Below are positions 16,816 to 46,757 of a stretch of 54,649 nt of DNA, in pieces. This DNA is from Nitrospirota bacterium. GTDB taxonomy: Bacteria; Nitrospirota; Nitrospiria; Nitrospirales; Nitrospiraceae. The stretch lies in contig JAUXQT010000060.1 in the NCBI GenBank assembly GCA_030682135.1, positions 1-54,649 of the forward strand, read 5' to 3'. Position numbers and translations under genes: made by a program. Below the pieces are notes generated by a model that saw only the letters and a program-made list of their open reading frames with translations, made no database searches and was not told where the DNA came from. Position 1 is the stretch's first letter, and each line of letters begins with the position of its first letter.

Positions 16816-19140
16816 CTACGGCAGCTCGCTTCCATGCATGCGGGCGAAGATCTCCCAGTCGAACTGCTTCGGCGCTACCGCGTGGAGTGGGATGGCCTCG
16901 ATGGTGCCGGGCCCGCGATAGGCCAACATGCACCCAACCACCCGCTCCGGCTCCTTGACGAGGCGGCGAATCGCTTCGTAGGCCAGATCTTGTCCGATGG
17001 TTTTGTCCTCTGGGGTCGGGGGCGCTCCTCGTAACGTGTGGCCGAGGATGGTGGCTTTGGTCGCAGGGGCAAGGCGATATTCACCGGCACGCGCCTGAAA
17101 CTGTGGCCAGGTCGTGAGTGTGCCTGCGACATATTCGACAAGCCCGCGCACGCCGCCATCCTGGTGATGGCGATGAGGCGTCTGCTCCGCCACTACAAAC
17201 AGATGGCTCTTGTTCGGGACGCCTAACGTACGTTTAAGCGTACCCAGGATGATGTCGTCGATATAGGCATCGGGGTCGGGATGCTCATTGACCAGGATGC
17301 CTTCCGCCCTGGCCTGATAGGCACAAGCGAGGGCGAGATGGCCGGACCCTGCCCCCATAATCTCGACGAAAAAGACGCTGCCCATGGCGGAGCTGGTCGC
17401 TTTCAACGACTCGATGGATTGATTCGCCAGCGACACAGCCGAATGAAAACCCAGGGAGGTCGTCCCCGCAAGATTGTTGTCGATCGTGCCGGGAATCCCC
17501 ACGGCCTGAACGCCAAATCCTTCGTAAAGCGCCCGGGCGCCTCGAAGACTCCCATCCCCGCCAATGACGACCAAGGCGCCGTCTTCCATGTAGGGCCGTA
17601 GATGCCGCATGGTGACCTGCTGCACCTGCTCACTCTTAAAGTCTTCGAACCGGCTGCTCCCGATGGGACTGCTCGCATGACTGCCCATGCCGCGGGTGTC
17701 ATCTTCCGTCACCGCTTCGATCCAGTTGTTGGCCAGACCCAAGAACCCGTGGCGAACGAAATAGACCTCCAAGCCAAACCGATGTCCTGTCACACGCAGT
17801 TCTTTTAACGCGGCGCCAGCACCGGCGAAATCACCCCCCGAGACCAAGGCTACGATCCGCTTGATCTGTCGAGGCTTGAGCGTGATCCGGTCTCTGCGTT
17901 CGCGCTCGACCTTCACCCAGGTCTCCCGCGCCGCCCGTTCACGCGCCGACAACCCCACCGCAGTGGAATAGCCGGACAAGAGTCCCTGTTCGTAGGTCAG
18001 CAGGACGACATTATCCTGTCCTTCCTTATATTCGCCAAACTCGGTGAAGGCTTCGCGAAAGGGACGAGCATCGAGATAAATCATGAGCGCCCGCAGCGTG
18101 GAGCTGTGGCTGTACAGACAGACAGCCTTCCCCTCGTGGGACTGCCCCAACCGGCGGAACCCATCCACGATATCCACATAGACATCGAAGAAGGAATGTC
18201 CGCCCGGGTAACTGTAGAGGGGATGTTTGATCAGGCGCTTGGCTGTCTGCACATCCACGCCGAATGCCTGTGCGGCCTCCTCGGCTTCCAGCTTCTTCTC
18301 CAGACCCGTGACCCATCCGAAATCCTGGGAGTCCAAGGCGGGATCGCATGCTGGTGGGAGCGCGTCAGCCTGTTGTGCCTGCCCCTGCATCAGCGCCGCG
18401 ATGACCCGCTCGTACAGTTGACGCGTATTGGGGCTGTGGCTCACCAGATGGACGAAGGTGCGCGGATCGAGGTAGTTGTGAATGTGCAGGAAATCCAGTT
18501 GTTGCCCGACCAGGCCCAACATCTTGGCCAGGGCTGCACCGACTGCGTCGGCTTTGGGAACGCCTCGCTCAGGATCCAGCACGTTCGCGAGACGGCGCCC
18601 GACTCGATAGGCACTGCTCTCCACGCGGGAGACACCATGACGCATCGTAAAGAGGAGCGTGCGGCCGGTTAAGTCTCGCGGCAGAAGCCAAAACCGATCC
18701 TCACCCAGATCCAGCACGATACGATCCTCGACTAATTGCGGCGTCAGTTGCGCGCGCGGCACGATCGCCACCGGCCGGCGATGCGCCGGCTTCTGCACGG
18801 ACCTGATGGGCACGCGAAAGAGCGGAGCCAACTCGCCTGCTGCAAGGAGCGCATTCCAGGCGGCAAAGAACACCAGTTCGTCTCCCCCGCAACCCTCTTC
18901 GATCACCGCGCGACGAGCCGCTCGATATTCTTCTGCCCCGGCGAAGCCCCCCTGCGCAGACTGCACAAAGGCCCGGATCTTCTCCATGGCGTCACGAGTT
19001 CGTTGTGGTCGATCGGCTGAGGATGTCGAAAGGGGTGGGAGCGTCACTCCCTCACCGGAAGGGCGACGCGCCAACATCTCCCCGTAGGCGAGAAGTCCTT
19101 CGACTGTGACAAACTCAAGCCGGTCCACTGTGGATTCCAT
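16816..19140 (-). CDS. Fusion of histidine-phosphatase domain and 6-phosphofructokinase domain
   Basis: 774 residues. About 1-155 is an unassigned helical region. About 160-400 is a histidine-phosphatase (RHG) domain: LLFTMRHGVSRVES (His168) and YSHSSTLRAL (second His345) followed by GEYKEGQDN, with a long insertion between them. About 425-774 is a PfkA-type domain: RIVALVSGGDFAGAG, IGSSRFEDF (Arg497), VVIGGDGSLRGA (527-534), GIPGTIDNNLAGT (548-560, catalytic Asp554), EIMGAGSGH and LGHTLRGAPPT (His701, Arg704). Gly at GGDGS and PGT points to ATP rather than pyrophosphate. Two usual residues are changed: TIDND is TIDNN (Asn556) and MGRxxG is MGAGSG (Ala597). Adjacent pyk supports a glycolytic role. 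Confidence 0.88.
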   Translation of the reverse strand: MESTVDRLEFVTVEGLLAYGEMLARRPSGEGVTLPPLSTSSADRPQRTRDAMEKIRAFVQSAQGGFAGAEEYRAARRAVIEEGCGGDELVFFAAWNALLAAGELAPLFRVPIRSVQKPAHRRPVAIVPRAQLTPQLVEDRIVLDLGEDRFWLLPRDLTGRTLLFTMRHGVSRVESSAYRVGRRLANVLDPERGVPKADAVGAALAKMLGLVGQQLDFLHIHNYLDPRTFVHLVSHSPNTRQLYERVIAALMQGQAQQADALPPACDPALDSQDFGWVTGLEKKLEAEEAAQAFGVDVQTAKRLIKHPLYSYPGGHSFFDVYVDIVDGFRRLGQSHEGKAVCLYSHSSTLRALMIYLDARPFREAFTEFGEYKEGQDNVVLLTYEQGLLSGYSTAVGLSARERAARETWVKVERERRDRITLKPRQIKRIVALVSGGDFAGAGAALKELRVTGHRFGLEVYFVRHGFLGLANNWIEAVTEDDTRGMGSHASSPIGSSRFEDFKSEQVQQVTMRHLRPYMEDGALVVIGGDGSLRGARALYEGFGVQAVGIPGTIDNNLAGTTSLGFHSAVSLANQSIESLKATSSAMGSVFFVEIMGAGSGHLALACAYQARAEGILVNEHPDPDAYIDDIILGTLKRTLGVPNKSHLFVVAEQTPHRHHQDGGVRGLVEYVAGTLTTWPQFQARAGEYRLAPATKATILGHTLRGAPPTPEDKTIGQDLAYEAIRRLVKEPERVVGCMLAYRGPGTIEAIPLHAVAPKQFDWEIFARMHGSELP

Positions 19141-19317
19141 GCGATACCTCGTTGGCTCGTCCCGACGTCACCGACCATCGTGCCTGCCCGCACGGAAATG
19201 CCGACAGGGAAATATTCTCTACAAGATGAACAGGTTGGATGCTACGCTGGCACATGGACGATAGCAACAATCCCGGCCCCACAGGCTGCGGAAAAACTTT
19301 TCCGGCACAGCACTCCG

Positions 19318-19442
19318 CAGGATGCTCAAACAGGCTGTCCAGCAAGGCCGCAGCCGATGGAAGCACCGGAGACGTAGCCCCTGGCTACGTTGAGGATGCT
19401 TTCGAGGCGAGAACGCTGCTGGCAGCCTGTTTCAGCATCCTG
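19318..19442 (+). repeat. Dispersed palindromic element, copy 3
   Basis: CAGGATGCTCAAACAGGCTG (from 19318) pairs with CAGCCTGTTTCAGCATCCTG (to 19442) with one mismatch. The core hairpin here is GCGTAGCCCCTGGCTACG style, a compensated variant of the GTACCC hairpin. The spacer to its left (19141-19317) holds no gene. Just before the element is the near-palindrome CGGAAAAACTTTTCCG (about 19290). Confidence 0.85.
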
Positions 19443-19524
19443 CTGCAAGTTCGTTGATCCTCCAAGAACCTGCATGCTAGGGTTCGTACGCTATTGCCGT
19501 GCCTCGTGATACGAACGTGACACT

Positions 19525-19986
19525 ATGGATCGAATCTGGAAGGTCTATGGAATAGTCGTCGTCCTTGCCGGGCTGCTGCTCTGTGGCCTCGCCGGTTGCC
19601 CCAACGTCGACTCGTCGCCTGAGCAGACTGTACCATCTGCTTCCGTCCCATCCGTTCAATCCCCAGGACCGGCTCTTCATGATGCCACGCCACCTCTCGA
19701 TCGACCGCATCGAGCCGAACAGGCCTTCCCGCAAAAATCCCGAGACCTCCTAGAAGCCATTCGGCAACATGAGGGCAAGGCTCTCCCCGGATATGTCGGA
19801 GGCGGGGTATTTCAGAATCGTGAACGACGCCTGCCTCGCGGCCACTATCGAGAGTACGATGTGAATCCCAAGATACGCGGCAGCTCGCGGGATGCGGAGC
19901 GAATTGTCATCGAGCAAGCCACAGGAAGAGCCTACTATAGCGGCGACCATTATCGAACGTTCACTCCGATGAATGAGACACCATGA
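19525..19986 (+). CDS. Barnase-type guanyl-specific ribonuclease, lipoprotein
   Basis: 153 residues. N-terminal hydrophobic segment VVVLAGLLLCGLAGC ends in a lipobox (acylated Cys25), then a proline-rich linker (30-65). The C-terminal domain is microbial RNase N1/T1: LPGYVGGGVFQNRE, HYREYDVN (general base Glu110), DAERIVI (Arg126) and SGDHYRTF (general acid His142), aligning with barnase Glu73, Arg87 and His102. All catalytic residues are present, so it should cleave RNA. The membrane anchor is unusual for a barnase and suggests periplasmic or surface display. The following barstar gene overlaps it by 4 bases, forming a toxin-inhibitor pair. Confidence 0.88.
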   Translation: MDRIWKVYGIVVVLAGLLLCGLAGCPNVDSSPEQTVPSASVPSVQSPGPALHDATPPLDRPHRAEQAFPQKSRDLLEAIRQHEGKALPGYVGGGVFQNRERRLPRGHYREYDVNPKIRGSSRDAERIVIEQATGRAYYSGDHYRTFTPMNETP

Positions 19987-20498
19987 CATCGAAGCTCACA
20001 TTGTCCACGTATCTTCAGTCGACGAAGGCTCCCTGGACCTCATTGCTCGTTGTAAAAGCCGGGCAGCGCGCAGAATCGCTGGTGCATCCACCAACCGGAT
20101 TTGCCTTGAAAATCATCAAGGGCGCCAAGTGTCAGACCACCGACGGCCTGTTGCGCGAATGGGCCAGAGCCTTGAATTTCCCGGACTACTTTGGACAGAA
20201 CTGGGATGCCCTTGAGGAATGTCTGGCTGACCTGGAATGGCTGCCAGCCAAGGGCTATATCCTCCTCATCACCGATGCGGCGCAGGTGTTGCCCGACGAT
20301 GAAGAAGAGTACACAACCTTGCTTGAGGTGTTGCGAGACGCGGGAGAGGCCTGGGGGAACGGACAGGCTGGAATGGGCCGGCAACGAGCGACGCCGTTTC
20401 ACGTGTTGTTCGCTGTATCGGAACGGGAGAAAAGAAAACGTGCCCATTGGGGCATGACAGACGTCACGACGCAACCGACTCGGAAGCCGGAAACCTAA
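19983..20498 (+). CDS. Barstar-family ribonuclease inhibitor
   Basis: 171 residues. The core LNFPDYFGQNWDALEECLAD (about 65-84) is the barstar helix-loop signature. The acidic helix (Asp75, Glu78, Glu79) occludes the barnase active site, and a hydrophobic strand (KGYILLITDA) follows. A predicted N-terminal strand region and a basic C-terminal tail make it longer than classical barstar (about 90 residues). The start overlaps the stop of the RNase gene by 4 bases, implying coupled translation. It lacks a signal peptide, so it should protect the cytosol against toxin not yet exported. Confidence 0.88.
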   Translation: MTSKLTLSTYLQSTKAPWTSLLVVKAGQRAESLVHPPTGFALKIIKGAKCQTTDGLLREWARALNFPDYFGQNWDALEECLADLEWLPAKGYILLITDAAQVLPDDEEEYTTLLEVLRDAGEAWGNGQAGMGRQRATPFHVLFAVSEREKRKRAHWGMTDVTTQPTRKPET

Positions 20499-46046: not shown

Positions 46047-46182
46047 ATCCACCTCTCACACATTCCGAAGACTCGTGAGTTCAGTATAGCAGATGTTCTC
46101 AAACGCGCCGATGTCGGCCCATGATTCTTCTATCGGTCTTCACACAACAAACTTGAACCAGGACCAGAATGAGCTGAACCGG

Positions 46183-46307
46183 CAGGCTGCTCAAAAAGAC
46201 CGTCCAGCAAGGCCGCAGCCGATGGAAGCACCGGAGGCGTAGCCCCTGGCTACGTTGAGGATGCGTTCGAGGCGAGAACGAAGTTGGCGGTCTTTTTCAA
46301 CAGCCTG
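46183..46307 (+). repeat. Dispersed palindromic element, copy 8
   Basis: Outer bases CAGGCTGCTCAAAAAGACCG and CGGTCTTTTTCAACAGCCTG pair with one mismatch. The core carries GCGTAGCCCCTGGCTACG, as in copy 3, showing compensatory change of the hairpin arms. The dtd stop codon (46308-46310, minus strand) follows its last base. Confidence 0.85.
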
Positions 46308-46757
46308 CTAGCTCACGTTCCGGCTATCCAGAACAAACGTCACCGGTCCATCGTTCAACAACTCGACCTGCATATGCGCGGCAAAGACGCCTGTTTCCAC
46401 CGGAATCCCTTGCGCTGTTAATTCGGCTGCCACTGCCTCATAGAGACGCTTTGCTTCGTCAGGCGGAGCCGCTTCGTCAAAGCTGGGGCGACGGCCATTC
46501 GTCGTCCGGCCAAGGAGCGTGAATTGGGAGACCAGCAAGACCGATCCACCAATGTCCGTCAACGAGCGATTCATCTTTCCCTGTGCATCGGAAAAGATCC
46601 GGAGCACGCGAATCTTCTCGACGAGGTACCGGCCATCCGTCTCCTCGTCCCCCTTCGCGACGCCCAGCAAGACCAGCAGGCCGGCATCGATCCGTCCCAC
46701 CACCCGACCGTCAACCTCAACCGATGCCCGCGTCACCCGCTGAATCACAGCCTTCAT
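46308..46757 (-). CDS. dtd: D-aminoacyl-tRNA deacylase
   Basis: 149 residues. Hydrolyses D-amino acids (and glycine from tRNA-Ala) to proofread translation. Motifs: [27 protein letters not shown] (77-83), and the Gly-cisPro dipeptide in [13 protein letters not shown] (Gly137, Pro138). Length is normal. Its stop codon adjoins palindromic element copy 8. It lies 3 bases downstream of the ogt stop codon and is probably co-transcribed. Confidence 0.94.

Follow-up and report, generated by a model that had tools for sequence, protein, structure and literature searches.

A sugar-phosphate-kinase-type domain and an RHG domain share one chain in PFK-2/FBPase-2 (PFKFB). Yeast PFK-1 is a PFK-A protein with an added N-terminal non-PFK domain, in that case glyoxalase-like (PMC12203962), and GPM2 of M. 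tuberculosis (Rv3214) is an RHG-fold protein linked to the F6P/FBP step (PMC4535450). Here we describe a gene that joins an RHG-phosphatase-like module to a PFK-A domain, found in a stretch of 54,649 nucleotides from a Nitrospirota bacterium (the window); in the literature, we found no description of this fusion. An earlier note on this DNA had proposed a one-chain switch between F6P and FBP, or else a regulator rather than a kinase. We predict that the fusion no longer acts as a housekeeping phosphofructokinase or as an enzyme of the F6P/FBP cycle, and we tentatively regard it as having taken on a new function, most likely that of a regulator that senses metabolites at the PEP/pyruvate-kinase node, a prediction held at somewhat less than even confidence.

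The fusion is a real gene and not an assembly accident, because full-length orthologues occur across the class Nitrospiria. Pfam placed His_Phos_1 (PF00300) at residues 258-363 (E 1e-5) and PFK (PF00365) at residues 428-725 (E 2e-56), both over the cut-off. Folded alone with 31 orthologues, the N-terminal half reached a pLDDT of 83.4 and a pTM of 0.85, and its residues 160-394 superposed on the RHG enzyme 4ij6 with a Z of 16.2 (193 residues, 2.7 A); superpositions on PhoE (1h2e) and dPGM (1e58) came within about 1.5 Z units of this one. The best profile match of the same half was the phosphatase domain of PFKFB2, a weak one (E 0.26). The C-terminal half superposed on E. coli PFK 1pfk (Z 26.4, 200 residues, 1.9 A). 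In the full-length AlphaFold model the middle of the PFK domain is weak, with residues 573-668 at a pLDDT under 50, and we therefore claim no active-site geometry for this domain. Pfam and predicted structure thus bear out the two-domain fusion read by the earlier note, including a phosphatase domain that structure prediction accepts, as well as its domain order, which is the reverse of that in PFK-2/FBPase-2. The N-terminus, which had been left unassigned, matched no Pfam family over residues 1-112, and its predicted structure has helices at residues 13-109 with a pLDDT mostly about 90 (Table 1).

Table 1. Positions in the window of the fusion gene, its domains and key residues, and the neighbouring pyk gene.
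Feature	Position	Strand	Basis or remark
Complete fusion gene, 774 aa	16816..19140	-	ORF from ATG to stop; full-length orthologues
Residues 1-155, helical N-terminal domain and strand/hairpin region	18676..19140	-	
Residues 160-394, RHG / His_Phos_1 fold	17959..18663	-	Pfam, structure superposition
His168, phosphohistidine nucleophile position, invariant	18637..18639	-	Alignment
Arg240, second catalytic Arg position (SPxxR)	18421..18423	-	Alignment
Ser271, probable general-acid position (E89 of dPGM), Ser in 90/91	18328..18330	-	
His345, second catalytic His, invariant	18106..18108	-	Alignment
Residues 426-758, PFK-A domain	16867..17865	-	Pfam, structure superposition, alignment
GGDGSLRG, residues 527-534, ATP-type donor motif GGDGSxxG	17539..17562	-	
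Asp554-Asn555-Asn556 (D127-N128-D129 of PfkA)	17473..17481	-	Alignment
Ser588 (R162 of PfkA; F6P phosphate clamp, allosteric switch)	17377..17379	-	
Ala597 (R171 of PfkA), Ala in 90/90	17350..17352	-	Alignment
Lys695 (R243 of PfkA; F6P phosphate clamp), Lys in 89/89	17056..17058	-	
His701 to Arg704 (H249 and R252 of PfkA), both kept	17029..17040	-	Alignment
pyk, pyruvate kinase, only one found in the genome	15202..16674	-	141 bp downstream of the fusion

Residue numbering in the PFK domain was fixed by E. coli PfkA in the alignment, and residues were counted over the orthologues covering each site (about 89-91). D437 (D12 of PfkA), R497 (R72), D529 (D103) together with G530, and E652 (E222) are kept in essentially all orthologues covering them, position 552 (T125) is T or S in essentially all, and the general base D554 (D127) is present in 91/91. 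The PPi-type donor motif GG(D/E)D(S/T) is absent from the fusion, which has GGDGS instead, and GGDGSxxG is the ATP-type donor motif of PFK (PMC11609450). Other positions have changed. The residue equivalent to D129 is N556 in 90/91 orthologues, the sole exception belonging to family f45, the deepest fusion branch in the tree; D129 of PFK is assigned to Mg binding. The R162 position holds S in 87 and T in 3 of 90 orthologues. We take R243, H249 and R252 to be the remaining three residues of the F6P-phosphate clamp, which is then incomplete in the fusion, with two of its four members (R162 and R243) replaced. Five of the eight PfkA effector positions carry non-conservative changes (R25 to V, R54 to E, D59 to G, K213 to N and H215 to S), and the fusion falls below every NCBIfam PFK cut-off, scoring 184.9 of 253 bits with NF002872, the best, and 171.8 of 371 bits with TIGR02482. 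The ORF translation and PfkA alignment confirm the residues that the earlier note had listed (Asp554, Arg497, His701, Arg704, TIDNN and MGAGSG) and add to them the changes of R162 to S588 and R243 to K695 and the degraded effector site. MGR is not universal in natural PFKs, and MGAGSG or the loss of R171 alone says little because standalone PFKs carry MGA, MGH and MGN. As a separate observation, standalone PFKs from other Nitrospirota families (L123, L124, L126, L127, L130, L131, L135 and L137) have GGNG, GGTG or GGEG in place of GGDG, so that D103 is replaced, and keep both D127 and D129.

A close rival to the regulator is an enzyme with an altered substrate, which we consider possible though rather doubtful. 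The fusion would then be a kinase with the PFK-A fold that uses ATP to phosphorylate an acceptor other than F6P, such as a different ketose phosphate or some larger phosphometabolite, and the RHG domain would act on a related or labile phospho-group. Such an enzyme would explain the kept base, Mg/ATP site and nucleophile better than a regulator does: D554, D529, T552/S552, R497 and GGDGSxxG are kept together with H701, R704 and E652, 63% of the columns in residues 571-660 are invariant in the orthologue alignment, and the losses are concentrated in the acceptor-phosphate clamp, the seat of acceptor specificity. The near-universal Asn at D129 and the loss of R171 speak against it.

The RHG domain presents a similar mixture. 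R167 is invariant among orthologues, as are H168 and H345, the two histidines that the earlier note had correctly read in the translation, and all three count in favour of an altered-substrate enzyme. The Arg240 position holds R in 46/91 proteins (that of the window included), Glu in 26 (the N. defluvii group) and Thr in 10, so that the RHG core of two His and two Arg is complete in only part of the family. The acid motif of dPGM, LNERxYG, aligns to L[ED]SQDFGW and puts Ser271 at the position of the general acid; this placement is probable, the profile match behind it being weak (E about 0.002). Another candidate for the general acid, the GES-motif Glu (H315/N in this protein), was rejected, since the dPGM alignment puts the acid in LNERxYG. 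A missing general acid and a variable second Arg thus extend the list of altered residues in the earlier note, and the former also counts against catalysis on an altered substrate.

The bifunctional F6P kinase and FBP phosphatase first proposed for this chain finds some support in the two confirmed folds, in the linkage to pyk described below and in the fact that RHG enzymes can be FBPases, as in M. tuberculosis GPM2 (PMC4535450). We nevertheless regard it as unlikely. Essentially all of the 90 orthologues have other residues in half of the F6P clamp, at R171 and at D129, and the RHG domain has lost its general acid, Ser standing there in 90/91, and has a variable second Arg. Moreover, the same genome encodes a second PFK, which has a GGDDT motif and scores over the PPi-PFK equivalog cut-off NF041103 (645 vs 550 bits), and a class I FBPase as a separate gene; GlpX was not found in this genome. 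The earlier note had counted a separate canonical pfkA together with inactivity of this protein, or a structure prediction rejecting the phosphatase domain, against its proposal: a separate PFK does exist, of the PPi type and not a pfkA, and prediction keeps the phosphatase domain. Class I FBPase occurs in 114/117 Nitrospiria genomes, with or without the fusion; fusion presence therefore does not track FBPase absence, and the fusion is unneeded as a source of FBPase. Glycogen/glucan phosphorylase was tried as a partner trait and set aside, its presence not clearly tracking the fusion.

The fusion was found in 72 of the 117 sampled Nitrospiria genomes, in 10 of 13 families. A standalone PFK accompanies it in 60 of the 72, so that it is mostly unneeded as a PFK source, and it is the sole PF00365 protein of the other 12, among which are two single-contig assemblies. 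Among the genomes without the fusion, 27 have a standalone PFK only and 18 have no PFK. Five Nitrospirales genomes of 3.1-4.5 Mb that are 98-100% complete (G009, G060, G143, G220 and G231) carry pyk and class I FBPase and no PF00365 protein. The 12 fusion-only genomes, together with the intact ATP motif, are what would favour a true PFK of low activity, working in glycolysis in those genomes that have no second PFK-family protein, with a dead RHG domain as a spacer or oligomerisation part. This explanation appears improbable to us, given the standalone PFKs in the majority of fusion genomes and the scores under every NCBIfam PFK cut-off. In addition, the residue changes are fixed throughout the family, also in the fusion-only genomes, and the presence of FBPase suggests that these autotrophs run gluconeogenesis.

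The adjacency to pyk pointed out in the earlier note holds well beyond the window. Among 86 distinct evaluable loci, each flanked by 1 kb or more at either end, pyk adjoins the fusion in 61: it lies downstream and co-directional in 18, as here, divergent in 35 and convergent in 3, and 5 further divergent loci carry another pyk type, about 37% identical. The second type is the stronger point for linkage, because a single-gene inversion keeps adjacency by default. A single Nitrospira group of genus rank and most class families outside Nitrospirales lack this adjacency, and the neighbours in these lineages (pilus genes, a 1916-aa protein) had no shared functional theme. By gene content, pyk is present in 70/72 genomes with the fusion and in 27/45 without it; genome size confounds this association, the median being 3.9 Mb with the fusion and 2.5 Mb without it, and among genomes of 2.0-3.4 Mb its p is 0.035. 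In the window, a promoter-like match between the fusion and pyk was weak and within chance. The locus also holds no pathway gene pointing to another substrate, which weighs against an altered-substrate enzyme.

On the other side of the fusion, an interspersed, MITE-like element lies at 19317-19443, between the fusion and a divergent ribonuclease gene, and occurs again at 46182-46309. It is about 125 bp long and is bounded by inverted repeats of 21 nt that are 95% complementary. Among 246 candidates in the genome, 40 were scored, giving at least about 40 copies with identities of 80-93%. The ribonuclease is of the Barnase type (PF00545) and is followed by a barstar-family inhibitor gene (PF01337) with a 4-bp overlap, the two spanning 19525-20498; such a pair stays close to the fusion in many Nitrospira genomes.

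The fusion has a single origin, in the class Nitrospiria. Across 396 Nitrospirota genomes, the full-length protein occurred only in this class, and outside it, among the matches listed, the PFK part alone was covered. A species-genome scan, which reached beyond Nitrospirota with patterns that find close relatives, returned about 65 fusion loci, all titled Nitrospirota or nitrifier; its only other matches were to the PFK domain, in two Clostridia. Matches in plasmid records were partial, the best of them covering the PFK domain, and none was the fusion. Within the class, full-length identity of the fusion stays at or above 64%, and in 56/62 comparisons it was better conserved than the adjacent pyk. 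Ca. Manganitrophus GAC4 (L065, 5941-8321) has it as two overlapping ORFs meeting at residue 436, a frameshift or sequencing error, the frame being open in other sampled class members. In a tree of PFK domains, the 11 fusion rows formed one clade with a support of 100/100. Its stem measured 4.36 changes per column, compared with about 0.3 within the clade and with terminal and inner branches of about 0.2 or less. Because this stem is near saturation, the exact place of the fusion among PFKs is unsure. The PFK copy thus changed massively on the stem branch and then froze, a pattern that fits neofunctionalisation followed by strict purifying selection. Conservation after such a burst speaks against either domain being in decay and points to a new function under constraint.

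We return to the metabolite-sensing regulator; of the earlier note's readings, it is the regulator rather than a kinase that is narrowly favoured here, over an altered-substrate enzyme. It is suggested by the loss of the acceptor clamp, effector site, general acid and second Arg, by the other enzymes that make the fusion redundant and by the linkage to pyk. In the proposed scheme, an RHG-phosphatase-like module and the copy of a PFK-A gene became fused once, in an ancestor within Nitrospiria. The PFK-like domain would still bind ATP, and the two remaining residues of the phosphate clamp would let it hold a phosphorylated ligand; the RHG-like pocket would bind, or slowly hydrolyse, a phospho-group. 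Occupancy would be signalled to the PEP/pyruvate-kinase step, the gene for which is the conserved neighbour; we infer ligand binding, the regulatory role and pyruvate kinase as the target alike. Several results sit less well with a regulator. D127, D103, T125, R72 and the ATP-donor motif show essentially no variation, and a pure regulator would be free to lose them, as the C-terminal half of eukaryotic PFK-1 did lose such residues (TISNN), and the invariant H168 and H345 suggest some RHG chemistry. The size-confounded co-occurrence with pyk, the chance that adjacency of one pyk type survived local inversions, the 12 fusion genomes with no other PFK-family protein and the lineages without pyk linkage also count against it. 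An independently evolved bacterial analogue of PFK-2/FBPase-2 seems to us very unlikely. In it, a phospho-metabolite distinct from FBP would act as a signal, made with ATP by the PFK-like domain and removed by the RHG-like one, and would set pyruvate kinase or gluconeogenic flux in nitrifying autotrophs.

Nitrospira and their relatives are widespread nitrite- and ammonia-oxidising autotrophs, and the literature that we found says little about how their PEP/pyruvate and F6P/FBP steps are controlled. Conserved like core enzymes, and combining two glycolytic folds with both active sites rewritten, the fusion is a clear target in the search for a control point or a missing reaction. Its annotation as a plain phosphofructokinase would mislead metabolic reconstructions, as 12/72 sampled fusion genomes would be scored PFK-positive through the fusion alone.

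Compared with the described systems, the fusion shares with E. coli PfkA (1pfk) the fold, GGDGSxxG, D103, T125, D127, R72, E222, H249 and R252. It differs in R162S, R171A, R243K and D129N, in a mostly changed effector site, in 420 extra N-terminal residues and in its very long stem branch. With the RHG branch-1 enzymes (iPSP of Hydrogenobacter, 4ij6; PhoE, 1h2e; dPGM, 1e58), it has in common the fold (Z 15-16), the RHG with its nucleophile His and the second His, but it is joined to a PFK, is 16-21% identical, has a probable Ser for the acid and G(H/N)S for GES and does not conserve the second Arg. Yeast PFK-1 has a different added domain and is an active, duplicated PFK (PMC12203962), whereas M. 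tuberculosis GPM2 is standalone and an active FBPase (PMC4535450). Finally, PFK-2/FBPase-2 has its domains in the opposite order and a PFK-2 P-loop kinase where the fusion has a PFK-1 fold, and nothing in the fusion gives evidence for fructose 2,6-bisphosphate.
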